From Candidatus Woesearchaeota archaeon (lineage in GTDB: Archaea > Nanobdellota > Nanobdellia > SCGC-AAA011-G17 > ARS1403): 42,638 bases of DNA. The notes below the pieces were generated by a model, which saw only the letters and a list, made by a program, of their open reading frames with translations, searched no databases and was not told where the DNA came from. Location of the stretch: contig JACOZQ010000025.1 in NCBI GenBank assembly GCA_016181275.1, positions 1 through 42,638 on the forward strand, written 5' to 3'. Each line of letters starts with the position of its first letter. The first letter of the stretch is position 1. The position numbers were made by a program, and so were the translations under genes. Shown here in pieces: positions 1 to 36,957 of this stretch.

Positions 1-114
1 AGTAAAATTTATAAAGCTTTTAAAGATTATTATATTAACATGATCCCCAGTGATCCAAATGGGTCGCTGGATGAGTCCTTTTTCTTGTTGAACCTTAATT
101 GGAGCGATACATAA
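1..114 (+). CDS. C-terminal end of an unidentified protein (partial)
   Basis: Frame 1 is open from the first base and ends with TAA at 112-114, giving 37 residues that finish ...FFLLNLNWSDT. The stop overlaps the ATG of the next gene by one base (TAATG), the usual arrangement of translationally coupled genes, which is the main reason to believe this frame. The residues do not look like the C-terminus of PheS, which one might expect upstream of pheT. No function can be assigned from so short a piece. Confidence 0.6.
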   Translation, partial: SKIYKAFKDYYINMIPSDPNGSLDESFFLLNLNWSDT

Positions 115-725
115 TGGAAGATACATTAGTTTTTCTTGATGCAGGATTTTTATCCAAGCTTTCAAAGCATTTTGGAAAAGGAAAATATTTAGTTTATGAT
201 ATTGTTAGATTTTCAGAGCATATTTCGAAAAAACAAAATCTATCCTGTAAAAACATTTTTTATTATACTGCTCCTCCTTTTATGCCGGGGAGGCCTTCAA
301 AAAAAGAAACAAAAAGAAAAAAATTGTATGATGACTTTATTTCAAAGCTTTCAAAAAACAAAAATCTTACTGTACGTGAAGGAAGATGCCAAAGATTAAA
401 AATAAATAATAAATTTGAATATATCCAAAAGGGAGTAGATTCATTAGTTGTAATAGATTTAATGAATGTTTGTATAGATTATCCTGAAATTAAAAAGATA
501 ATCATTATTGCTTGTGATTCGGATTTTGTTCCAGTAATTGATGATTTAAAAAGGAAGGGGATAAAAACTACCCTCTATACTTATTATGAAAGAGGAAGAA
601 AGGCAAAGTTTTCAACATCAAATGAATTAATAAAATCTGTTGATAAATATGTTTTGCTATTAAAAGAAAACTTTACTTCCTTTCAATTAACTAAAATTCA
701 AAATGCCAACCATAACATTAAATAA
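114..725 (+). CDS. NYN domain protein (LabA/DUF88-like, PIN-fold RNase)
   Basis: A 203-residue protein with the landmarks of the NYN family, PIN-like fold metal-dependent ribonucleases: FLDAGF with Asp9 in the first strand, KGVD at 106-109, a further acidic residue at Asp115, and ACDSDFVPVI with Asp135 and Asp137. These acidic residues would form the metal site. A TTG at 99 lies in frame, but the ATG at 114 overlaps the preceding stop and places the first strand normally. The last seven or so codons run, in another frame, over a duplicated copy of the pheT start, so the native C-terminus may have been altered. RNA processing or defence roles are known for the family; the role here is inference. 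Confidence 0.8.
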   Translation: MEDTLVFLDAGFLSKLSKHFGKGKYLVYDIVRFSEHISKKQNLSCKNIFYYTAPPFMPGRPSKKETKRKKLYDDFISKLSKNKNLTVREGRCQRLKINNKFEYIQKGVDSLVVIDLMNVCIDYPEIKKIIIIACDSDFVPVIDDLKRKGIKTTLYTYYERGRKAKFSTSNELIKSVDKYVLLLKENFTSFQLTKIQNANHNIK

Positions 726-745
726 AAAACAATTTGAAGAATTGG
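692..745 (+). repeat. Left copy of 54-bp direct repeat (pheT 5' end)
   Basis: This 54-bp stretch matches 1861-1914 with one mismatch (ACA against ATA at the fifth codon). It contains the pheT start region and the first 14 codons, and lies before the DUF1016 gene, whereas the other copy starts the intact pheT. It looks like a target duplication or the trace of a recombination that placed the DUF1016 gene at the pheT 5' end. Confidence 0.85.
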
Positions 746-774
746 AGTTAAGACTTTCAGAAGATTATATCTGA
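703..774 (+). pseudogene. Orphan pheT 5' fragment (23 codons)
   Basis: ATG at 703 opens a frame that reproduces the first 14 codons of pheT with one change (Ile5 to Thr), then diverges and stops at TGA 772-774. It sits upstream of the DUF1016 gene and overlaps the NYN C-terminus in another frame. It is best read as the residue of the pheT start left behind by the insertion; it could still act as a small leader ORF because the sequence before its ATG is that of pheT. Confidence 0.7.
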
Positions 775-777
775 TTA

Positions 778-1839
778 ATGAACATTAAAATGGTTTCAGA
801 AAGAAATAAAATATTGAAAGAGAATCATTATGGTAGTTTGATTACTAATATCGGCAGTATTCTTGAAAAAAGGAGACAACAAGCATACAAAGTTATTAAT
901 GAAATCCTTGTTAAAACATATTGGGAGATAGGAAGACAGATTGTAGAGTTTGAGCAAGAAGGGAAGGAAAAAGCAGAATATGGTTCGTCACTTCTTAATA
1001 ATTTATCAAGAGATTTAAGATTAAAATATGGAAAGGGATTTAGTAAAAGCAATGTCTATCTTATGAGATTATTATATACTAAATACCAAAAATTCCAGAC
1101 ACCGTCTGGAAAATTGAATTGGAGTCATTATGTGGAACTACTTGGCATTGAAGAAGATTTAGAAAGAAAATTTTATGAGAAACAATGCATTTCAGATGGA
1201 TGGAGTGTAAGAGAATTAAAACGACAAATAAATTCTGTTTTATTTCATAGAATAGCATTAAGTAAGAATAAAAAAGAGATTTTAGAATTATCAAAAAATG
1301 GGCAGATTATTAATAAAGATGAAGATATCCTCAAAGATCCTTATGTATTAGAATTTTTAAAAATACCTGAAAATTATAAATATACGGAAAAACAATTAGA
1401 ACAGAAGATAATTGATAATCTTCAGATGTTTTTATTAGAATTAGGAAAGGGATTTACTTTTGTAGCAAGACAATATAGAATATCTTTGGACAATAATCAT
1501 TTTTATGTAGACTTAGTTTTTTACCATAGAATTCTAAAATGCTTTGTTCTTATTGACCTAAAGGTTGGACAAGTTACTCATCAAAACATTGGTCAGATGA
1601 ATTTATATCTTAACTATTTTAAAGAAGAAGAAAATAGTGAAAGTGATAATCCCCAAATTGGAATCGTTCTTGGAACTGAGAAAGATCATTTAACAGCAAG
1701 ATATGCCCTTGGTGGCATCTCAAATAAACTTTTTGTATCAAAATATAAGCTATATTTACCTAATAAGGAGGAATTAGAAAGGAAATTGGATGAGTCTTTA
1801 GCAAGAACCAAAAAAGTCAAAAGGCCAGGCACTGTCTGA
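778..1839 (+). CDS. DUF1016/YhcG family PD-(D/E)XK nuclease
   Basis: 353 residues with the DUF1016 (YhcG) architecture: an N-terminal helical DNA-binding half (about 18-160, with YWEIGRQIVEFEQ and FSKSNVYLMRLLY) and a C-terminal nuclease half (about 185-345). The PD-(D/E)XK core is visible as FYVDLVFYH (Asp245) followed by LIDLKVG (Asp260, Lys262) and GQMNLYLNY. The family is scattered by horizontal transfer and is often found near restriction, defence or mobile loci; its exact role is unknown. The gene is framed by the 54-bp pheT repeat and by a 10-bp direct repeat (770-779 and 1835-1844), suggesting a mobile cassette. A second ATG at 790 is an alternative start. Confidence 0.88.
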   Translation: MNIKMVSERNKILKENHYGSLITNIGSILEKRRQQAYKVINEILVKTYWEIGRQIVEFEQEGKEKAEYGSSLLNNLSRDLRLKYGKGFSKSNVYLMRLLYTKYQKFQTPSGKLNWSHYVELLGIEEDLERKFYEKQCISDGWSVRELKRQINSVLFHRIALSKNKKEILELSKNGQIINKDEDILKDPYVLEFLKIPENYKYTEKQLEQKIIDNLQMFLLELGKGFTFVARQYRISLDNNHFYVDLVFYHRILKCFVLIDLKVGQVTHQNIGQMNLYLNYFKEEENSESDNPQIGIVLGTEKDHLTARYALGGISNKLFVSKYKLYLPNKEELERKLDESLARTKKVKRPGTV

Positions 1840-1860
1840 TTAATTAAGACTCCATTGTAT

Positions 1861-1914
1861 TAAAATTCAAAATGCCAACCATAATATTAAATAAAAAACA
1901 ATTTGAAGAATTGG
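1861..1914 (+). repeat. Right copy of 54-bp direct repeat (intact pheT start)
   Basis: Partner of 692-745. It covers 11 bp of leader plus the first 14 codons of the complete pheT and differs from the left copy at one base. Confidence 0.85.
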
Positions 1915-3494
1915 CAGGAAAGAAACTGCCATTAGAAGAGTTAAAAGACAGGATTTCCATGCTAGGAACTGATCTTGAAAAAATAGAAGGCAATGAAATT
2001 ATTGTAGAAGTTTTTCCAAACAGGCCGGATATGCTGAGTGAGCAGGGATTTGCAAGAGCCTTTAGCTCTTTTATTGGTGTTAAGAAAGGATTGAGAAAAT
2101 ATCATGCTAGAAAATCTAATTATAAAGTTGAGGTTGATGCAAGCGTTAAGAAAGTAAGACCTGAGACTGTTTGTGCTGTTGTTAAAAATTTAATATTGGA
2201 TGATGAGAAAATTAAAAGCATTATCCAGATTCAGGAAAAATTACATATCGGATATGGAAGAAATAGAAAGAAAGCTGCTATCGGAATTTATCCATTAAAT
2301 AAAATTAAATTTCCTGTAAGATATTTAGCTAAAAAACCAGAGGAAATTAAGTTTAAACCATTAGAAATGAGCCAGGTTTTAAATGGAAAACAAATATTAG
2401 AACTGCATCCTACTGGGAGGGAATATAAGAATTTATTAGAGAATGAGAAAACCTATCCAATATTTATTGATGCTAATGATAATATTTTATCAATGCCCCC
2501 GATAATTAATTCTGATGATGTTGGCAAAGTGACTGAAGACACGAAAGATGTTTTTGTTGAATGCTCAGGATTTGATTATAATATTTTGAGCAAATGCTTG
2601 AATATAATTGTGGCTGCTTTAGCTGACATTAATGGAAGGATATATGAAGTTAAGATAAATAATAAAATAAGTCCAAATTTAGAACCTAAAGAAGAAAAAT
2701 TAGACATAAAATATGTTAATAAGATGTTAGGTCTTGAGCTTAAAGAAAAAGATGTTAATGAACTGCTTGAAAGAATGGGATATGATTATAATAACGGAAA
2801 AGTTTTAGTTCCTTGTTATAGGACGGATATTTTGCATCAGATTGACTTTGTTGAAGACATTGCAATTGCTTATGGCTATGAGAACTTTGTTGAGGAAATA
2901 CCTAATGTAAGCACAATTGGAAAAGAAAGCGGGAAAGGCAAGTTTAATAAAAAAATTTCTGAGATATTGATTGGATTGGGATTATTGGAATGCAGCTCTG
3001 TAAGTTTAAGCAATGAAGAAATTCTAAATAGAAAAATGAATGTTAAGAATAAACTAGTGAAAGTTGAATCTCCGGTTAACCAGGATTATGATACTTTAAG
3101 GAATTTTATGCTGCCTGGATTGCTAAAGATTCTATCTGAGAATAAAAGATATGAATATCCGCAGAATATTTTTGAGATTGGAAAAATTTTTGATGATATT
3201 ACAGATAAAGATTCTTTAGGAATTGTTGTTACTGGAAATTTTACTATGATTAAGCAGAAGTTAGATGTTTTATTTTCTTTATTAGATATAAAATATGAAA
3301 TAAAGGAAGATGAAAATGGAAGTTTTATTATTGGAAGATGCGGGAAGATAATTGTTAATGAAAAAGAATTGGGTGTTATTGGTGAAATGAGTCCCATTGT
3401 TTTGGATAGTTTTGGAATTGATGTGCCTTGCAGCGGATTGGAAATTAATTTAGAAAGGTTAGATCTGTTTACTAGAGTTATTGAGGAACTCTAA
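1872..3494 (+). CDS. pheT: Phenylalanyl-tRNA synthetase beta subunit, archaeal type
   Basis: 540 residues, the length of archaeal/eukaryotic-type PheRS beta rather than the approximately 800-residue bacterial form, and lacking the bacterial N-terminal tRNA-binding extension. Recognisable parts are the N-terminal segment with IIVEVFPNRPDMLSEQGFAR, a B3/B4 region (about 90-255), a B5 domain (about 275-350, LGLELKEKDVNELLERMGYD), and the catalytic-like core (VEDIAIAYGYENF onward). With PheS (not in the window) it forms the alpha2beta2 enzyme that charges tRNA-Phe. The start ATG is fixed by the family N-terminus, but the upstream DNA has been rearranged by the DUF1016 cassette, so its promoter context may be new. 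Confidence 0.95.
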   Translation: MPTIILNKKQFEELAGKKLPLEELKDRISMLGTDLEKIEGNEIIVEVFPNRPDMLSEQGFARAFSSFIGVKKGLRKYHARKSNYKVEVDASVKKVRPETVCAVVKNLILDDEKIKSIIQIQEKLHIGYGRNRKKAAIGIYPLNKIKFPVRYLAKKPEEIKFKPLEMSQVLNGKQILELHPTGREYKNLLENEKTYPIFIDANDNILSMPPIINSDDVGKVTEDTKDVFVECSGFDYNILSKCLNIIVAALADINGRIYEVKINNKISPNLEPKEEKLDIKYVNKMLGLELKEKDVNELLERMGYDYNNGKVLVPCYRTDILHQIDFVEDIAIAYGYENFVEEIPNVSTIGKESGKGKFNKKISEILIGLGLLECSSVSLSNEEILNRKMNVKNKLVKVESPVNQDYDTLRNFMLPGLLKILSENKRYEYPQNIFEIGKIFDDITDKDSLGIVVTGNFTMIKQKLDVLFSLLDIKYEIKEDENGSFIIGRCGKIIVNEKELGVIGEMSPIVLDSFGIDVPCSGLEINLERLDLFTRVIEEL

Positions 3495-4422: not shown

Positions 4423-4444
4423 TAATCCCCTAATTAGAGGATTA
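4423..4444 (-). terminator. Possible terminator after the small exported protein cluster
   Basis: A hairpin with a 6-bp stem (4423-4428 with 4439-4444), extended past one mismatch, overlaps the stop codon of the 4442-4849 gene and is followed on the minus strand by a T-rich run (TCTCTTTTTATTTTAG). It separates that operon from the toxin-antitoxin operon transcribed in the same direction. Confidence 0.45.
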
Positions 4445-4849
4445 CGTAACTGTAAAGTAAGCTCTTCCCAGCTCTTTATTTGTCTGGTATTCTTTCAACA
4501 GCGCATAATAGCCGCCATTCCATCCTGGGCTTGTTACACAATTGGCTATCAATGTCTTTCCTGCTTCTCCAAATCTTGGCTTGCTGCACCAGTTTCCATC
4601 ACAATTGTCAAAGCTGCAGGTTCTTACTTCCGAGCCGCCGACTTTTCTCAGCTCGACTGCATTCTTGATTCTGTTTCCATTTGCATTTACCATGACTGTA
4701 ACTTGATCGCCTGATGTTACTGATGGGGTGACAGAAACATCAACATTAGAAACAGCTGCACCGGTTATCTTGTCGAAATTAACTGCAACTAATGCAACAG
4801 CAACTACGACTGCAGCAACTAAAAGCACTGTCCTGTTTTTCTGATCCAT
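4442..4849 (-). CDS. Small exported protein with N-terminal anchor and TGAAV motif
   Basis: 135 residues. A single hydrophobic segment (about 8-24) is followed by KITGAAV, then a polar, beta-rich region of about 100 residues with four cysteines (CSFDNCDGNWC and NCVTSPGW) likely to form disulfides, and a C-terminal LGRAYFTVT. It resembles a membrane-tethered immunoglobulin-like domain. GGAGG stands a few bases before the ATG. It is the last of four similar genes in tandem; function unknown. Confidence 0.75.
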   Translation of the reverse strand: MDQKNRTVLLVAAVVVAVALVAVNFDKITGAAVSNVDVSVTPSVTSGDQVTVMVNANGNRIKNAVELRKVGGSEVRTCSFDNCDGNWCSKPRFGEAGKTLIANCVTSPGWNGGYYALLKEYQTNKELGRAYFTVT

Positions 4850-4891
4850 ATTTCATCCTCCTTTTTTGATTATAATTTTTTATTTTTATTT

Positions 4892-5293
4892 TCAAGCTAC
4901 TGTGAATAATGCTTTATTGCCAACCATCTCTCCTCTTCTATTCTTTGCTTGAATATAATAACTTCCTGAGCTCATTGTTGTTGGAATTTTGTATTCCAAA
5001 TCACAATCATAAGTTCCTGAAACTTTTCTGCTGCTGCATTTTGATGCCCTTGCAAAAAATCTCTTTGCTGTATATTCACCATCAACCTCGTATATTTTGA
5101 ACTCTTGTGAAGTAGTCTCTGCATCTCTTACACTTACCAAAACACTAAAGCCCTGCATAACCGGGGAATTTGTAACTGTAACTACTGGATCAATTTTCGC
5201 TTTTGCTACGTTTCCCGTTAATCCGTCGATATTAAACAAAAATGCTGCAGCTACAATGATTCCAACTGCCCAAAGCAAAACATTTCTTTCCAT
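4892..5293 (-). CDS. Small exported protein, paralogue of its neighbours
   Basis: 133 residues with the same plan as the adjacent genes: hydrophobic N-terminus, LTGNVAKA, then a beta-rich domain (VVTVTNSPVMQGFSVLVSVRDAE) with two cysteines (CSSRKVSGTYDCDLEY) and the C-terminal signature GNKALFTVA. The preceding GGAAGGT is a ribosome binding site inside the 3' end of the previous gene. Four bases or fewer separate it from that gene, so the cluster is one operon. No enzymatic motif is visible. Confidence 0.75.
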   Translation of the reverse strand: MERNVLLWAVGIIVAAAFLFNIDGLTGNVAKAKIDPVVTVTNSPVMQGFSVLVSVRDAETTSQEFKIYEVDGEYTAKRFFARASKCSSRKVSGTYDCDLEYKIPTTMSSGSYYIQAKNRRGEMVGNKALFTVA

Positions 5294-5296
5294 TTT

Positions 5297-5749
5297 TTAC
5301 CTTCCTGTTTCCTGATATTTTGAATCTGAAACTGTGAAAAATGCTTTATTGCCAATTAATTCCCCTGATGCATCGTCTTTTACCTGGATAAAATACTTTC
5401 CATTTGGCAATTCTGAAATTGGAATATTGAAGCCTGCTTCGCATCCATAATAACCGGCTGTTGCGAACTTGCAATCACCTATTCCGAACTCAAAACTTAT
5501 TCCGGTATAACTTTCATATTCAGAATAAACATATAACTTTGATGAGCTCGATGATTTAATATTATCTGCTGAAACAACAAGATCACTTCCTGCTGAAACA
5601 GCTGCATCTGAGTTTAAAACTTTTAAAACAGGAACTTTAACTGCTGGTGTTCCTGATTTTGCAACATTGGCCGTAAAATTACTTAAATTAAAAATCACAA
5701 CCGCAACAACAACCACTCCTAGAATCCAAAATATTGTCTTTTTTTCCAT
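5297..5749 (-). CDS. Small exported protein, paralogue of its neighbours
   Basis: 150 residues: MEKK, a hydrophobic segment (about 6-22), FTANVAKS in the motif position, then a beta-rich domain with CKFATAGYYGCEAGF and the ending GNKAFFTVSDS shared with the 4892-5293 protein. A GGAGGA ribosome binding site overlaps the stop of the upstream gene. The conserved C-terminal strand (GNKA-FFTV) and the disulfide loop suggest a common fold, probably Ig-like. Function unknown. Confidence 0.75.
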   Translation of the reverse strand: MEKKTIFWILGVVVVAVVIFNLSNFTANVAKSGTPAVKVPVLKVLNSDAAVSAGSDLVVSADNIKSSSSSKLYVYSEYESYTGISFEFGIGDCKFATAGYYGCEAGFNIPISELPNGKYFIQVKDDASGELIGNKAFFTVSDSKYQETGR

Positions 5750-5755
5750 TTTAAT

Positions 5756-6178
5756 TTATCTTCCTCCATATAAAGAATCTTGAAATAAAAATTCTGCTTT
5801 TCCTGAAACCCCTGCAACCTTAATTGTATAGATTCCATCCTTCCATTGGTCTACCGGGGTTTTGTATATTGCCAATGAAGAAATGCATCTGCTTCCTGAT
5901 TTTTCAAAGCAGCTCATTTTTAAAGATCCTGATTTTGATGAGTAACGAGGATCATAAATAAAAACTCTCTTATTAGCTTCTGATGGGGTTATTTTAATAT
6001 AAACAGCATCGCCTGCCGAGATAGCAACCGAGCTTCCAGATGGGTTATCAAAGAAATTTTCTCCATCTGCTGATAAAGATATAACATGGTTTTCTGAAAC
6101 AACTGCCGATCCTGTAATTCTTTCAACATTGAATAATAATGCTATGAATACTATAACAGCGACTGCAGAAATAATCAC
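5756..6178 (-). CDS. Small exported protein, first gene of the cluster (start uncertain)
   Basis: 140 residues from a GTG at 6178: hydrophobic N-terminus, RITGSAV, then a beta-rich domain with CFEKSGSRC and a C-terminal KAEFLFQDS matching the pattern of the next three genes. The siblings begin M-D/E-x-K before the hydrophobic run; here the same residues (E-K-K) are in frame but with no ATG, GTG or TTG in front. A TTG preceded by AGGTGAT lies just upstream but is out of frame by one base across an A7 run. Either GTG is used or one A was lost. Confidence 0.65.
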   Translation of the reverse strand: MIISAVAVIVFIALLFNVERITGSAVVSENHVISLSADGENFFDNPSGSSVAISAGDAVYIKITPSEANKRVFIYDPRYSSKSGSLKMSCFEKSGSRCISSLAIYKTPVDQWKDGIYTIKVAGVSGKAEFLFQDSLYGGR

Positions 6179-7710: not shown

Positions 7711-8736
7711 TTATTTCTGATAAAGTTCTGTTTCAGGATGGAAAGCGTACCAAGCAAACCACATATCCTCTTCTTTTATTATTTCTTGATTTGTATCTTC
7801 ATTAATAATTACAATTCTATCGTCTTCTAATTTTTCCATTTTTATATTTGTTCCTGCCAAATTATCTTTAATCACTTTTCCTTTTTTCAGCTCATCCCTA
7901 ATATATGCCTTGTACTTTCCATTAATTTCTATTCCAACAATTTGTGTCTTTGGATGTATCTTGTTATCTTCATCTTCATTTTCTACTGGAAAGATTAAAA
8001 AACTATCTTCGTAATAATTTCCATAAGGATCTCTTCCATAATTCCTCTTCATCCCAGTATCTTGAGAAAGAACTTCTGAATCCTGATGCGCTGCTTTCCA
8101 GGTTCCCCATGAAACAGTATCTATAGAAATCTCTTTTAGCTCCTGTCCTGTTAATTCTCCAACTATTGCTTTTCCATCTATTTGCTGCCAATATGTATCT
8201 GTCTCTTCATCGTACATAACTAAATTAGAATTGTATAATTTTCCTGAAGTGCCAAACCTTGTTTCTGCTTTTTTTCCATCAATCTTAACTTGTCTTTCAT
8301 ACGCAATTCCAGACCCGCATAAAGGGCAGTATGTAATTAATAATGAATCTCCAGCTACAACATCATTTGCAATCTCATGCCATACTAGGATTTGCAGAGG
8401 ATAGACACGCTTTTCATTTTTATAAACTAATGCCAAAACTAATTCATTGTCTTCTATCCATTCATCCGCCTCTTCTACAGAAACAAATTTTATATTTTTT
8501 TCAGCCAATGCAGGAATTCCCCTATCAACTCCAATGCCTCCTTTTCCTGGACCGCCGCCCTGGATTTTATTTGGATCAATAATGTATTTTGTTCCATCGC
8601 TTGTTACTTGCACTCCTTGCTCTTGCTGCTGAGGTGTTAATCCAATCTCTGTTTTTGTTACATTGATATGACTGCATCCCGTTATAAAAACTACAGCCAA
8701 TAATGCAAAGATTCCAAGAATATTTTTGAAAATCAT
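7711..8736 (-). CDS. DUF3179 domain lipoprotein
   Basis: 341 residues. Lipoprotein signal FITGC at the N-terminus, then a DUF3179 domain (about 90-330) with its hallmark blocks: YPLQILVWHEIAND, LLITYCPLCGSGIAYER, FGTSGKLYNSNLVMYDE and DTYWQQIDGKAIVGEL. The paired cysteines of CPLC may bind a metal or form a disulfide. The biochemical role of the family is not established. The location next to thiol-redox genes fits an extracytoplasmic protein. Confidence 0.85.
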   Translation of the reverse strand: MIFKNILGIFALLAVVFITGCSHINVTKTEIGLTPQQQEQGVQVTSDGTKYIIDPNKIQGGGPGKGGIGVDRGIPALAEKNIKFVSVEEADEWIEDNELVLALVYKNEKRVYPLQILVWHEIANDVVAGDSLLITYCPLCGSGIAYERQVKIDGKKAETRFGTSGKLYNSNLVMYDEETDTYWQQIDGKAIVGELTGQELKEISIDTVSWGTWKAAHQDSEVLSQDTGMKRNYGRDPYGNYYEDSFLIFPVENEDEDNKIHPKTQIVGIEINGKYKAYIRDELKKGKVIKDNLAGTNIKMEKLEDDRIVIINEDTNQEIIKEEDMWFAWYAFHPETELYQK

Positions 8737-8952: not shown

Positions 8953-9073
8953 CTTCTTCTAAAATTAAAGCTCCAACGTAGCCGCATTTTTTGCAATAAT
9001 ATTTTCCAAACTGAGCTCCCATGTAAGTTGTGATGTTTTTTTATTTGCAGATGGGGCATTTATTGATTTTCAT
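8906..9073 (-). pseudogene. Small zinc-ribbon protein interrupted by an in-frame TAA
   Basis: ATG at 9073 overlaps the TGA of the preceding gene (ATGA). The frame reads KCPICK, then TAA at 9041-9043, then continues without a break as KNITTYMGAQFGKYYCKKCGYVGALILEED to a TGA at 8906. The CPIC and CKKC pairs make a classic zinc ribbon, so the TAA breaks what was one 55-codon gene. A C-to-A change in a Ser codon would produce it. Nonsense mutation or base error are the two readings. Confidence 0.6.
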
Positions 9074-9624
9074 AATCTGTTATTGATAAAAGCCTCGATT
9101 TTGTTTTCATCAAAAGTTTCTAAAATCTCTATTTTATTTAGTCTTGTTAAAACAATCTTAGCATCCATATTTTTAAATGGAGCAACATATAAATTAGCAG
9201 GATATTTTTCTGCAAATGCTTCTATTTTTTCAATTAAATCTGGTTCGCAAGCATAGTCTTCACAATTGTAGTTAATTATTATTCCTGGTGGACCTTTCCC
9301 ATCTGCATGCTCCAGCATATGTTTTTGCACTTCTAATCGCATTGGTTCTTTTAAAATATGTGAAGGAGGAGAGACCTCTATATGTCCTTGATCTGATATT
9401 GGAGGAAGTGTTTTTGAGGAAGCTATTAAATAAGTTATTCCAACAACCAATACCAAAATAATAATTGTAAAAATAGACCAGTTTTTTATTTTTCTTTTTT
9501 GCCTTTCTGTAAATTTACTTCTATTTTTCGGCTCATTGTATAACTCTAAATGTTTGGATTTATTATGCTGATTTAAAGATTCTTCTGATGCAAATTCCTT
9601 ATTACATTTTTCACACTTTGGCAT
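9070..9624 (-). CDS. Membrane protein with C2H2 zinc finger and DUF3105-like domain
   Basis: 184 residues in three parts: a C2H2 finger at the N-terminus (CEKCNKEFASEESLNQHNKS plus KH), one membrane segment (about 50-70), and an extracytoplasmic domain (about 75-184) with DQGHIEVSPPSH, a HMLEHADGKGPPGIIINYNC stretch and LYVAPFKNMDAKIVL, the pattern of DUF3105. With N-in topology the finger would be cytosolic. The DUF3105 role is unknown. It heads the small group that includes the two Cys-rich mini-genes and is 11 nt after the CPSC membrane protein. Confidence 0.7.
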   Translation of the reverse strand: MPKCEKCNKEFASEESLNQHNKSKHLELYNEPKNRSKFTERQKRKIKNWSIFTIIILVLVVGITYLIASSKTLPPISDQGHIEVSPPSHILKEPMRLEVQKHMLEHADGKGPPGIIINYNCEDYACEPDLIEKIEAFAEKYPANLYVAPFKNMDAKIVLTRLNKIEILETFDENKIEAFINNRL

Positions 9625-10184: not shown

Positions 10185-10772
10185 TTATGTTTCATGTTCA
10201 CCAGCATGGCCTGAACCCCCACAACCATCTTCTAAATCCCAAATGTCTGCAATCTGCTCTACATTGAAATCATATTCTGTAATTAGATATTTTGCCAATC
10301 CTTCAAATGCATACCATCTCCAGCATTTACAACAGCAAGGACCACCTTCATGAGATAATTTCATTGCTTCATCATAAATTTTCTGCTGTTCTTGAGATAA
10401 TACAATTGTTTTTTGAAAATTTAATAACTCATCTACTAATGAACGTGAAATGTCATAGGGATCTGTTGGAATTTTATCGATGTGAGAATATTTCTTTAAT
10501 CCTTCAACTTGTTCTTTATACCTGTGGAAATCCATTTTAGAGCAACATGAGCCTTGCAACCTGTCAGTGTCAACTTTTTTTAGAATATCAGGGCCTGCGC
10601 AGAAATTTGTGTTTGCATTATTAAGCTGATTAAATTTAGCTTCCAGAGCTGAAACCTCTTTAATGGTATTACCTGTTTGAAATGGAGAGAAAAATAAAAG
10701 AGAAAAAATAACAACAAGCAGTCCAGCTATAACAAACAATTTTTTCTTTGATATACTAATAGTTCTTTCCAT
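10185..10772 (-). CDS. Anchored Cys-rich protein of unknown function
   Basis: 195 residues from ATG 10772, chosen because the longer frame would overlap the dsbA-like gene. Membrane anchor at about 10-28, QTGNTI motif, then an exported domain with FCAGPD (Cys58), GSCCSKMD (Cys76, Cys77), PCCCKCWRW (Cys146-148, Cys150), Cys184 and a terminal GHAGEH. Eight cysteines plus histidines suit a metal site or a redox cluster. It follows the DsbA-like gene by 16 nt, so the two probably work together. The family is not one I can name. Confidence 0.75.
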   Translation of the reverse strand: MERTISISKKKLFVIAGLLVVIFSLLFFSPFQTGNTIKEVSALEAKFNQLNNANTNFCAGPDILKKVDTDRLQGSCCSKMDFHRYKEQVEGLKKYSHIDKIPTDPYDISRSLVDELLNFQKTIVLSQEQQKIYDEAMKLSHEGGPCCCKCWRWYAFEGLAKYLITEYDFNVEQIADIWDLEDGCGGSGHAGEHET

Positions 10773-10788: not shown

Positions 10789-11532
10789 TTAAAGCTGCGA
10801 TTCAATTGCTTGCTGGAATGCAACAAATGGTTGAGCTCCACTTATCTGCTGGTTTCCGACGAGGAAATAAGGTGTTCCTTGACCTCCAGATCTTGTTGCA
10901 TCATTCAAGTCTTTTTCCACTTCATCCTTATATTTTCCAGAATCTAAGCAATTATCAAACTCGTTCGAATTTAGATTGAGCTCTTGAGCATATTGCTTAA
11001 ATATCGAAACTCCTGAGCTTGCCCATACCGACTGGCCTTCAAAGATTTTGTCATGCATTTCCCAGAATTTTCCTTGGTCGTCTGCGCACTCTCCTGCCTC
11101 AGCTGCTTTTTGTGCCATTGGATGTATACTACTCAAAGGAAAATCTCTATAAACAAACTTTACTTTTCCTGCATCAATGTATTGCGATTTTAATTGGTCG
11201 AATGCTTGATCCCTAAATCGTTTGCAGAAAGGACATTGGAAATCTGAAAATTCTATCATTGTAATTGGTGCATTTTCATCTCCTATAAATGGGTCATCGT
11301 CTACAAAGTCTTCTGCATTTACACTAGCAATGCCTGTCGGGATACTTGGAGATGGAGCACTTGGAGCTGATGGATCGATTGCACTACCTGTCGCATTTCC
11401 TATACCAAAACCTCCTGTAAATAAAGATATTACAAATAAAGCTGCAAAGATAAAAACTCCAACTTTCCATAAAGTTGATTTCCTTAAAGTTACAGAACCA
11501 GAATCTTTTTTTGATATCAAATCATTTTCCAT
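10789..11532 (-). CDS. DsbA-family thiol-disulfide oxidoreductase, membrane anchored
   Basis: 247 residues: N-terminal membrane segment (about 22-40) ending NATGSAI, a Pro/Ser-rich linker, then a DsbA-like thioredoxin domain with inserted helices (Thioredoxin_4 type). Active site DFQCPFCKRF (Cys100, Cys103) and cis-Pro loop GGQGTPYFLVG are intact. It should oxidise or isomerise disulfides of exported proteins. A GGTGG ribosome binding site precedes ATG 11532, and the upstream region holds an inverted repeat that may be an operator. Confidence 0.92.
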   Translation of the reverse strand: MENDLISKKDSGSVTLRKSTLWKVGVFIFAALFVISLFTGGFGIGNATGSAIDPSAPSAPSPSIPTGIASVNAEDFVDDDPFIGDENAPITMIEFSDFQCPFCKRFRDQAFDQLKSQYIDAGKVKFVYRDFPLSSIHPMAQKAAEAGECADDQGKFWEMHDKIFEGQSVWASSGVSIFKQYAQELNLNSNEFDNCLDSGKYKDEVEKDLNDATRSGGQGTPYFLVGNQQISGAQPFVAFQQAIESQL

Positions 11533-11690: not shown

Positions 11691-12194
11691 CTAAAAATTC
11701 TCTTTTAAATGAACAGCTAATGTTTTTCCTTTTTTGATTCTTTTTATTAATCCTTTTTTTTCCAAGTCTTGAAGAACGTAACTTAACTTTGCTTTAGACA
11801 TGTCTGTTCTTATTCTTAATGTGTTCTGGGTTATACCATCTTGCCCCTTAACTATATTCATAACTTTCTTTTCATAATTATTGAGTCCCTTCATTACAAA
11901 ACCAAATTTCTCTTCTTTTAAGCTAGCATTTTTGTTCTCTTTCAATTGCCTTAATATTTCTTCTTCTGTTTTTGAAAAAAATATTAGATAAAAACCAAGA
12001 GATAACATAAATCCAAGAAATCCGAATGCAACATGAACAATTGATAAACCAGATTCAACTTTAATACAATTCTTATTTTCAAAGCATCCAAATTCCTCTG
12101 CTTGATTGCTTAAATTATTTACAAGAATAATTATTATGATTGTAAGCACAATACTACATACCAAAAACAAACCCCCAAGATTTTTGTTGTTCAT
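11691..12194 (-). CDS. Membrane-bound winged-helix transcriptional regulator
   Basis: 167 residues: two membrane segments (about 8-26 and 48-72) flanking a short external loop with FGCFENKNC, then a cytosolic winged helix (about 98-165): NYEKKVMNIVKGQDGITQNTLRIRTDMSKAKLSYVLQDLEKKGLIKR. The paired loop cysteines face outside and could sense the redox state of the cell surface. A TATA box (12218-12226) lies 28 nt before ATG, so it is leaderless and transcribed on its own. A link to the inverted repeat at 11607-11666 is inference. Confidence 0.75.
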   Translation of the reverse strand: MNNKNLGGLFLVCSIVLTIIIIILVNNLSNQAEEFGCFENKNCIKVESGLSIVHVAFGFLGFMLSLGFYLIFFSKTEEEILRQLKENKNASLKEEKFGFVMKGLNNYEKKVMNIVKGQDGITQNTLRIRTDMSKAKLSYVLQDLEKKGLIKRIKKGKTLAVHLKENF

Positions 12195-12236: not shown

Positions 12237-12908
12237 TTATCCTCCAAAGATTCTGAAAACAAAAATCAAGTAGTACAGGGAAATTCCAAGCATTATAATT
12301 CCAGCTAGCTTATTGATTGCTGACTTACGCTTGATTGTAAATTCTATAATCTTATCACTCCACTTTGCAGATAGAAGAGAAAATAAGAGCAGTGGGAATC
12401 CTAACCCTAATCCAAATAAAAAAAAGTTAATCATGCTTGAGAAAAAACTTTCAAATATTAGAGCTCGAGCAAAGAAAATAGCTATGAATGCCGGATTACA
12501 TGGAATTACAATAGCTCCAAAGAAAAACCCGTAAAGAAATGCATTTAATTTTGGATTTTTACTAGTCGGGGTTTTGGATTTTGGAATAAATTCTGAAAAG
12601 TCTAAATCGAAAATTAACAACAGGCTGATTATCCCCAATATAGAAAATGCTATCGGCGAAATTATTCCAATTACGTCTGTAAGAGACACTTGAAATATTG
12701 TAGTGAATATTAGTCCTAACAAGAGCATGAAAATAATTACTCCAAGGGTTATGATTAATCCAAATAAAGCATAAGTTTTTTTATCTTCTTTCTGAGAAAA
12801 CTGATTTGCTATATAAGCCAAAAATGCAGGGTAGAGTGGGAGAACACAAACTGCTGTTAATGGAGTTAATAAACCTAAAATAAAAGATGAAAGATCCAAT
12901 AATGCCAT
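12237..12908 (-). CDS. ccdA: CcdA/DsbD-type transmembrane thiol transporter (canonical order)
   Basis: 223 residues from ATG 12908 (a GTG at 12917 is an alternative that overlaps the upstream gene). Six membrane segments in the usual CcdA order: the first carries LTAVCVLPLYPAF (Cys21) and the fourth GAIVIPCNPAF (Cys137). The two cysteines relay electrons from cytosolic thioredoxin to extracytoplasmic acceptors. The gene directly follows a TlpA-like lipoprotein that is its probable partner. Confidence 0.85.
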   Translation of the reverse strand: MALLDLSSFILGLLTPLTAVCVLPLYPAFLAYIANQFSQKEDKKTYALFGLIITLGVIIFMLLLGLIFTTIFQVSLTDVIGIISPIAFSILGIISLLLIFDLDFSEFIPKSKTPTSKNPKLNAFLYGFFFGAIVIPCNPAFIAIFFARALIFESFFSSMINFFLFGLGLGFPLLLFSLLSAKWSDKIIEFTIKRKSAINKLAGIIMLGISLYYLIFVFRIFGG

Positions 12909-12909
12909 C

Positions 12910-13512
12910 TTAACCACACGAGCTTATTGCTTCCTTTAATTCTGAAGCAGATTTTACACCTCTCCTTAATATTTCTGCTGATTGATCCGGACAGATTAGC
13001 ATTACGGGAGCTTGAGGTGCATTAATTATTGCTGTGCTGAATTGCTCTATTAATTCTTTTGTCAAATCAGAGGGAGAGACCGCATAATACCAATTGAAAC
13101 CATTTGCTTTTAAATGTTCTTTCACTTTTTCTTCATCCTCATTTGGATCTGTGTCTAATGATACTGAAATAACTTCGCCTCCAACATCATCATGCAGTTT
13201 TTTTATTTCCTGCTGCTGTTTTGTGCATACTGGACACCATACTGCAAAGCTTTCAACTAAAACAGGTTTGCCTTTGAAATCATTTAAAGAAAAAAATTTT
13301 TGAGAGTTAACATCCTTAAGTTGCGCGCTTAGAATTGTTTCGGGAAGTTTTTCTCTCATTGTCTTTGTTTCTGGATTGAACCCAATCGGCTCAGTGTCTA
13401 CAATAGATGAATCTATTGAGGTCTTTGAAATTTCTGTATGAGAACATCCAGATAATAAAAACAGAGTGGCAGCAATAATCCCCATCAAACCAAATACAAT
13501 TTTGTAATTCAT
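12910..13512 (-). CDS. TlpA/redoxin-like lipoprotein with intact CxxC
   Basis: 200 residues from ATG 13512 (the longer frame starts before the signal peptide). Lipobox LLSGC with Cys23, then a TlpA-like thioredoxin domain (about 60-195): FAVWCPVCTKQQQEI with Cys93 and Cys96, SVSLDTDPNEDEEKV, and cis-Pro INAPQAPVMLI. It would sit on the outer face of the membrane and take electrons from the adjacent CcdA. A paralogue at 18099-18653 keeps the same layout but lacks the second cysteine. Confidence 0.88.
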   Translation of the reverse strand: MNYKIVFGLMGIIAATLFLLSGCSHTEISKTSIDSSIVDTEPIGFNPETKTMREKLPETILSAQLKDVNSQKFFSLNDFKGKPVLVESFAVWCPVCTKQQQEIKKLHDDVGGEVISVSLDTDPNEDEEKVKEHLKANGFNWYYAVSPSDLTKELIEQFSTAIINAPQAPVMLICPDQSAEILRRGVKSASELKEAISSCG

Positions 13513-13551
13513 ATTACTGTTAAAGCAGACTAGCATAGTATAAAAAAGTTT

Positions 13552-35552: not shown

Positions 35553-35563
35553 AAATATATAAA
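35553..35563 (+). promoter_or_regulatory. TATA box of the flavin disulfide oxidoreductase gene
   Basis: AAATATATAAA lies about 28 nt before ATG 35587, supporting that start over the upstream ATG at 35563, which falls within the box itself. Confidence 0.5.
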
Positions 35564-35586
35564 TGAAAATCTCTTATTTAATTAAC

Positions 35587-36957
35587 ATGATTTATGATTT
35601 AGTTATTATTGGAGGCGGTAGTGCTGGGTTTAGCGCTTCTGGAACTGCTGCTAATAAATTCAACAAAAAAGTCTGCATTATTGAAAAAGGTCCTTTTGGC
35701 GGTCTATGTATTCTTCGTGGATGTATGCCAAGCAAGACTTTAATTTATTCTGCCAGAATTGCAGAGCTGATTAAGAAAGCGAAAGAGTTTGGAATTCATG
35801 TCAATCAAAACATTAAAGTTGATGCTAAGCACATTGTTGAAAGAAAAAATAAAATAATTAAAGGCTTCGCTGACTATAGATTGGAAGCTGTAAAGAAAAA
35901 CAAGAATATTGATCTTGTAAATGGAATGGCTCAATTTATTTCGAAAGATAAAATAAAAGTTGGAGAAAAAATAATCGAAGGAAAAAATTTTTTGGTATCA
36001 ACTGGGAGCAGAGTTTTCATTCCTGACGTTCCAGGATTAAAAGAAATTAAATATCTAACTAGTGATGAAGCTCTTGAGCTGAAAAAACTTCCAAAAAGCT
36101 TGATTGTTCTTGGAGGGGGACCTGTTACACTTGAGCTGGCATATTATTTCCATAATCTTGAAGTTGATGTCACAATCATTCAAAGAAGCAATCATGTGAT
36201 GAGCGACAATGATGAAGACATTGCCGACGTGATTGAAAAAAGCTTTAGGAAAAACGGAATCAAACTTTATACTGGAACTTCATTGAAAAAAATTTATGAA
36301 ATAAATAAAATTAAAATAGTTGAATTTGAGCAGAATAATAAAAATATCAAAGTAAAAGCAGAAGAAATATTGGTTGGGCTTGGAAGAATTCCTGATTTTA
36401 AAAATTTAAACTTGGAGAGAACCGGGATGAAATTAAATGATAAAAGATTGCCTATACTTAATGAGTATTTGCAGACTTCTATAAAAAATATTTATGTTGC
36501 AGGAGATGCCAGCAGAATTTTAGAGGTTGTTAACGTTGCTGTTGAACAAGGCAGAGTTATAGCCAATAACATTTTTGGAAAAAAAGAGAAGATTGATTAT
36601 CATAAATTTCCTGCCGCTGTCTTCACTCATCCTGAAGCTGCATGGATTGGAGTGACTGAGAAGGAAGCTAAAGGAAAAAATATGAATGTTGAAATTGCAA
36701 AACTTCCTTACGAAGATCTTGGGAAAGCTGTTTGTTTGGGAGAAACTGATGGATTTATTAAAATGATTATAGATAAGAAGAGTAAAATAATTTTGGGTGT
36801 TGCCATTGTAGGTCACTTAGCCAGCGACATAATCCATGAAGCAGTTCCTTTGCTCTATAATAAAAATACAATTTATGACCTTACAAAAATGCAGCACATT
36901 CATCCTACATTTGGAGAAATTTACAGCTACTTGGTTGAGGATTGTTGTAATCTGTGA
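35587..36957 (+). CDS. Pyridine nucleotide-disulfide oxidoreductase (Lpd/MerA-like)
   Basis: 456 residues from ATG 35587. FAD motif DLVIIGGGSAGFSAS, redox-active GGLCILRGCMPSK with a Cys-x4-Cys pair, NAD motif LIVLGGGPVTLELAYYF, YVAGDASR, and the C-terminal interface MQHIHPTFGEI with the His-Pro dyad. All class I residues are present. Without lipoyl enzymes nearby, the substrate (dihydrolipoamide, another thiol or a metal) is not determined. The longer frame from 35563 overlaps the TATA box. Confidence 0.88.
   Translation: MIYDLVIIGGGSAGFSASGTAANKFNKKVCIIEKGPFGGLCILRGCMPSKTLIYSARIAELIKKAKEFGIHVNQNIKVDAKHIVERKNKIIKGFADYRLEAVKKNKNIDLVNGMAQFISKDKIKVGEKIIEGKNFLVSTGSRVFIPDVPGLKEIKYLTSDEALELKKLPKSLIVLGGGPVTLELAYYFHNLEVDVTIIQRSNHVMSDNDEDIADVIEKSFRKNGIKLYTGTSLKKIYEINKIKIVEFEQNNKNIKVKAEEILVGLGRIPDFKNLNLERTGMKLNDKRLPILNEYLQTSIKNIYVAGDASRILEVVNVAVEQGRVIANNIFGKKEKIDYHKFPAAVFTHPEAAWIGVTEKEAKGKNMNVEIAKLPYEDLGKAVCLGETDGFIKMIIDKKSKIILGVAIVGHLASDIIHEAVPLLYNKNTIYDLTKMQHIHPTFGEIYSYLVEDCCNL

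Follow-up and report, generated by a model that had tools for sequence, protein, structure and literature searches.

The window (the whole 42,638-nucleotide stretch analysed, contig JACOZQ010000025.1 of a Candidatus Woesearchaeota archaeon) encodes a cysteine-rich protein, here called Fam1 together with its homologues, among the genes collected in Table 1. A GTG upstream of its start codon, at 10841, would give a longer open reading frame, which overlaps the DsbA gene. The motifs GSCCSK, PCCCKCWRW and GHAGEH, to which the first-pass annotation drew attention, are present letter for letter in the open reading frame, which has eight cysteines in all, and the gene coordinates bear out the 16 nt that were said to separate the DsbA stop codon from the Fam1 start. 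The further description of the two genes as translationally adjacent is apt as to shared direction and close spacing; translational coupling goes beyond this evidence. The part of Fam1 beyond its N-terminal helix presumably lies outside the cell membrane.

Table 1. Fam1, its sequence features and the neighbouring genes (positions are those of the window)
Feature	Position	Strand	Basis or remark
DUF3179 lipoprotein-like protein	7711..8736	-	PF11376, 4.3e-88
Recurrent neighbour combining an N-terminal C2H2 finger with a weak DUF3105-like domain	9070..9624	-	PF11303, 22.0 bits vs cut-off 25; cluster 13, six loci
CxxC membrane protein (GGGCPSC), four predicted transmembrane helices	9636..10121	-	no Pfam or NCBIfam match
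Fam1, 195-aa Cys-rich anchored protein	10185..10772	-	ATG at 10772
Fam1: C184-G-G and His-rich C-terminal tail (H189, H193)	10188..10223	-	C184 and GG conserved
Fam1: C146-C147-C148-K-C150 motif, at helix start	10323..10337	-	invariant in 74 members; helix 151-167
Fam1: C76-C77-x2-M80-x2-H83 motif (GSCCSKMDFHRY)	10524..10547	-	C76, C77, M80 invariant; H83 91%
Fam1: C58, conserved	10599..10601	-	alignments
Fam1: predicted membrane anchor, a hydrophobic helix at the N-terminus (residues 9-27)	10692..10748	-	AlphaFold2 helix; preceded by Lys-rich N-terminus
DsbA-family protein (CPFC)	10789..11532	-	PF13462, 6.5e-36; PF01323, 2.9e-19
Membrane-anchored winged-helix regulator, recurrent neighbour	11691..12194	-	PF24034, 8.7e-10; cluster 12, six loci
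CcdA/DsbD-type membrane protein	12237..12917	-	PF02683, 3.7e-10
TlpA/redoxin-like lipoprotein	12910..13536	-	PF08534, 1.6e-11

The CxxC membrane protein next to Fam1 belongs to a family (alignment A5) in which C104 and C107 are invariant; its structural model is of low confidence (pLDDT 69.7), and a fold search with it gave no match. In a sister species (L026) the corresponding island runs from genes for a DsbB-like protein, a membrane protein, a cupredoxin-like protein, a paralogue of the CxxC membrane protein, an ArsR-type regulator and an HMA protein to those for CopA, the membrane regulator, DsbA, Fam1, the CxxC membrane protein and the DUF3105-like and DUF3179 proteins. The upstream part of this island is found in the window's genome on another contig (C9 of G000, bases 1-3200, L134), which carries genes for DsbB-like (CVLC), membrane, cupredoxin-like, CxxC membrane paralogue, ArsR, Met-rich and truncated HMA proteins. 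A search of the window's own assembly for P1B ATPases found none above cut-off. Since the gene order on contig C9 matches that of the sister species and the contig breaks off within the HMA gene, CopA has probably fallen into an assembly gap.

Fam1 of the window matches no Pfam family above cut-off, and searches of NCBIfam and of PDB sequences with it, as well as a fold search (below), were likewise empty, which upholds the first-pass view that no family could be named. A Pfam scan of 74 members gave no named family either. Identity with MerP or an HMA domain is rejected on the same scan (no PF00403 match in Fam1 or the 74 members). Neither viral contigs searched for Fam1 relatives nor an Rfam scan of the window yielded a match. 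The motif CCCKCWRW was not found in the literature searched, and no paper describing Fam1 was found in the literature on Patescibacteria mercuric reductase, DPANN copper and DsbA proteins, pSinB and rhizobial copper resistance.

Fam1 is nevertheless not an orphan: it constitutes an unnamed family spread across archaea, bacteria and plasmids. A profile built from a five-sequence alignment and run against genome contigs finds it encoded at at least 119 loci, the best 80 of which were retained for locus analyses. A search of 60 relatives turned up four clear homologues, one of them from the same family and the others from the same order. Within the phylum, 371 genomes searched with the five-sequence alignment give 16 strong matches. 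Going by record titles, the hosts include Woesearchaeota, Pacearchaeota, Aenigmatarchaeota, Nitrososphaerota, many lineages of Patescibacteria, one Chloroflexi MAG and one Devosia MAG. Among 74 homologues (to 41% identity), seven of the cysteines (C58, C76, C77, C146, C147, C148, C150) never vary and the eighth, C184, is at least 90% conserved; in an overlapping set of 82 sequences each of the eight cysteines is 99-100% conserved. Judged from these alignments, the cysteine motifs are not chance occurrences. The 82 sequences also conserve M80, Q88, P102, P105, Y106, Y133, K149, W151, G158, K161, L163 and D182, and, among histidines, H83 (91%) and H189 (97%). Histidine makes up 26% of the tail that follows DGCGG (150 of 573 residues) vs 2.5% overall, and 62 of 72 members have at least two histidines there.

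Structure prediction, which the first-pass annotation had also proposed, gives a confident fold: the AlphaFold2 model made on the alignment of 74 members (pLDDT 88.4, pTM 0.76) consists of the N-terminal helix followed by an almost entirely helical domain. A Foldseek search of this model against the PDB returned nothing significant (best E 1.2). The nearest approach to a named family is DUF5714 (PF18978), whose similarity covers residues 132-173, including the CCCKC helix, and is weak (17.5 bits vs a gathering score of 26.2); it is matched at E up to 0.1 by 18 of the 74 members (best E 0.00076). DUF5714 members sought in 99 genomes and 14 controls were not found.

Two other unnamed groups have, like Fam1, a GLxKYL-type helix that begins with a CC...CxC/H motif, and differ from Fam1 in their N-terminal halves and their C-terminal motifs (MVGGC and GGxCGV). 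A3 is a second Cys family, common in Woesearchaeota (CEYCCGA...CGCAHSYAMRGLAKYL...MVGGC); A4 is the C-terminal domain of a membrane protein of ~290-600 residues, cluster 3 (PCCNNSTFFQDCNHG...GGxCGV). Profile-profile comparison of Fam1 with A3 (hhalign probability 97.4%, E 9.5e-12) argues strongly that A3 is a distant relative. A4 may be one too: its direct link with Fam1 is weak (only 71.9%, E 3.4e-5) and is helped by that between A3 and A4 (90.6%, E 1.3e-6). Some Fam1 loci hold members of both groups as well. A3-type proteins (CEYCCGA...CGCAHS...MVGGC) are seen at L006, L007, L009-L012, L014-L016, L021, L027, L028, L032 and L034. Cluster 3 proteins, in which a CxxC transmembrane domain is fused to an outside CCx7CxH domain, occur at L047:2947-4431, L046:3308-4756, L096:10612-12081 and 20 other loci; one of them, when scanned, matched neither Pfam nor NCBIfam.

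Which genes accompany Fam1 was counted at 77 loci, with mechanically called open reading frames and within five genes of Fam1; these loci are drawn from the best 80 of the at least 119 and include related genomes. The most frequent partner is the CxxC membrane protein, alone or fused (47 of the 77), followed by DsbA (~30 of 77, nearly always one or two genes away), a protein with HWHP and HTHDD motifs (22 of 77), P1B ATPases (15 of 77) and MerA (9 of 77). CcdA and multicopper oxidases are recurrent neighbours as well. In a distance control, the CxxC, DsbA and HWHP proteins peak at one to two genes from Fam1 and are almost gone past five, whereas P1B ATPases are spread more evenly and show less clustering around Fam1 than DsbA and the CxxC protein do. 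The His-rich HWHP...HTHDD protein (cluster 4; L051:10380-10937 and 21 other loci) has no Pfam match, only a MoaD-like one below cut-off. A small membrane protein with a Cys/Met motif (MSDCPFTA...MCQM; cluster 6, L097:3049-3471 and 10 other loci) heads many Fam1 gene clusters and belongs to no known family.

Among these 15 P1B ATPases, CPC together with YN and MxxSS (the Cu+ type) occurs in seven and CPH (P1B-3) in six; one lacks a readable CPx and retains YN and M..SS, and one is masked. No Zn/Cd pattern is visible among the 15. P1B-1 and P1B-3 ATPases are described as copper exporters (PMC5552934). P1B ATPases occur in 228 of the 371 genomes of the phylum, and being so common they make co-occurrence with Fam1 at the level of whole genomes uninformative. 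Recurrent regulators near Fam1 are of the CsoR family, ArsR and BlaI/BlaR1 types; most of the CsoR-family neighbours carry C-H-H, not C-H-C, at their metal positions, which makes their metal uncertain. On a quickly built tree with many weak forks, P1B and MerA contexts change independently, at least 10 times and at least six times, respectively.

The loci with MerA form a distinct set. One MerA tested against TIGR02053 passes (501.8 bits, cut-off 454.45), and a C-terminal CC pair is present in nine of the 10 proteins of the MerA cluster. MerA in CPR bacteria has been published before (PMC8261052); what Fam1 draws attention to is mer loci that have MerA and no recognised MerP or MerT. A regular-expression scan of the nine MerA loci for HMA and MerT-like motifs (a motif scan rather than a profile search) gave no MerP or MerT candidate save one spurious reading frame. 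Locus L066 does hold a protein of the HMA cluster and a MerC-like protein. In Patescibacteria, L046, L065, L080 and L096 have a compact arrangement of ArsR, the Fam1 homologue and the CxxC membrane protein and/or MerA, with no recognised MerP or MerT; at L046, MerA is absent within five genes of Fam1.

Fam1 is also found on plasmids of cultured rhizobia. A tblastn search of plasmids gave 13 records, 11 of them with good coverage (Sinorhizobium, Ensifer, Microvirga). At eight of 10 plasmid loci inspected the genes for DsbA, CcdA and Fam1 are consecutive. AK21 has DsbA, an unannotated stretch that could fit CcdA and then Fam1; on the Microvirga plasmid Fam1 stands apart, with TlpA, SCO and DsbA genes ~4-8 kb distant. 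Nine of the 10 loci, those of Sinorhizobium and Ensifer, lie within islands that also carry genes for CusA RND pumps, multicopper oxidase, DUF411, SCO or TlpA/DsbE. Four plasmid Fam1 sequences that were compared keep the candidate ligand residues, and on the inspected plasmids the protein is always annotated 'hypothetical protein'. One of these plasmids, pSinB, has been described as bearing resistance modules for copper and other metals (PMC6115938).

Fam1 is thus associated with copper genes, and its place among copper-resistance and sometimes mercury-resistance genes suggests that it most likely captures copper outside the membrane. We consider it probable that Fam1 is an extracytoplasmic thiolate/histidine protein for Cu(I), or for Hg(II) in mer loci, that is coupled to a DsbA/CcdA redox pair along the lines of ScsC and CueP. 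The protein would be held by its N-terminal membrane helix, with its outside domain capturing soft metal ions: usually copper, probably as Cu(I), and Hg(II) where the locus has MerA. C58, C76, C77, C146-C148, C150, C184, Met80, His83 and the His tail are candidate ligands. The DsbA-family protein and the CcdA/DsbD-type reductant would set the redox state of the thiols, the adjacent CxxC membrane protein may receive metal from Fam1, and the metal would then be exported by CopA or reduced by MerA. The first-pass annotation had suggested metal or heme binding. Its first half is supported by conservation of Cys, Met and His, by the His-rich tail and by the copper and mercury context; the second is not supported, as the sequence has no CxxCH, and identity with a c-type cytochrome is rejected for the same reason.

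Several points count against this reading. A DsbA/DsbB oxidising pair beside Fam1 would be expected to oxidise free thiols, CopA in the window's genome is argued from a contig break in an assembly with no P1B ATPase above cut-off, and P1B ATPases are both common in the phylum and less tightly grouped around Fam1 than its closest partners. An unlikely alternative is that the neighbouring DsbA (with DsbB) links all eight cysteines into four structural disulfides and that the part played by Fam1 in metal-stressed cells is indirect. The closeness of DsbA, the DsbB-like protein on contig C9 and the even number of conserved cysteines are in its favor. On the other hand, adjacent CC and CCC runs would be unusual in such a role, which also leaves the conserved Met, His and His-rich tail unneeded, and the fixed partner on rhizobial plasmids, CcdA, is a component of a reducing pathway. 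The earlier suggestion that Fam1 is a substrate of DsbA could be right: it accords with the frequent proximity of DsbA and with the DsbA-CcdA-Fam1 order of the plasmids, but copper ATPases, MerA and multicopper oxidases nearby tell more than disulfide formation.

Less likely again is a thiol relay, in which the Cys cluster would pass electrons between DsbA and the CxxC membrane protein as a new kind of Dsb partner, metal genes being near because metals damage thiols. Such a relay would fit the identity of the closest and most constant neighbours; it does not explain the His tail, DsbA is absent within five genes at many loci, and Fam1 itself has no CxxC. A role for Fam1 as a copper chaperone in the assembly of cuproenzymes (oxidases, multicopper oxidases), instead of in detoxification, is improbable: several loci do lie near SCO, cytochrome c oxidase assembly, multicopper oxidase and cupredoxin genes, but MerA loci and RND/P1B export islands suggest resistance, and many hosts are Patescibacteria or DPANN archaea, which are expected to lack such oxidases.

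Metal capture of the kind proposed for Fam1 has precedents. CueP with ScsB/ScsC, of Salmonella and others, similarly handles copper outside the cytoplasm with a DsbA-like partner and a DsbD-like reductant; ScsC has sub-picomolar affinity for Cu(I) and interacts with CueP (PMC8900818). Fam1 shares this type of genetic partnership in the copper islands of the eight plasmids with consecutive DsbA, CcdA and Fam1 genes. The hosts are different, the extra CxxC membrane partner is peculiar to Fam1, and the Pfam, PDB-sequence and PDB-fold searches with Fam1 brought up no relation to CueP. Classical mer operons, like Fam1 loci, place a small extracytoplasmic thiol protein (MerP) and a membrane protein with paired cysteines (MerT) beside MerA; Fam1, unlike MerP, lacks the HMA fold (no Pfam HMA match) and is much larger, and the regulator of its compact loci is of the ArsR type in place of MerR. 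It is possible, and we suggest it only tentatively, that a new superfamily of extracytoplasmic soft-metal proteins with its own fold and a new CxxC membrane protein make up a mobile copper/mercury capture-and-transfer module. The module would take the place of MerP/MerT in patescibacterial mer operons, and of CueP-like proteins both in DPANN archaea and on the plasmids of rhizobia.

The proposal provides a function hypothesis, with ligands and partners, for an unnamed family known from more than 100 little-understood genomes (of DPANN, Patescibacteria and ammonia-oxidising archaea) and from conjugative plasmids of cultured rhizobia. It is open to direct test in cultured Sinorhizobium meliloti GR4, which has Fam1 (C770_RS34125) on pRmeGR4a, and its derivative GRM8SR, cured of pRmeGR4a and pRmeGR4b (PMC7010606).

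Two further features of the window lie apart from the Fam1 gene. Positions 4442-6178 (minus strand) encode four secreted proteins, each 133-150 residues long, that lie side by side and are probably related; sister-species proteins cross-match at least two of them. At 35563-36957 there is a pyridine nucleotide-disulfide oxidoreductase-like protein with an active-site-like stretch, GGLCILRGCMPSK, seen by eye.
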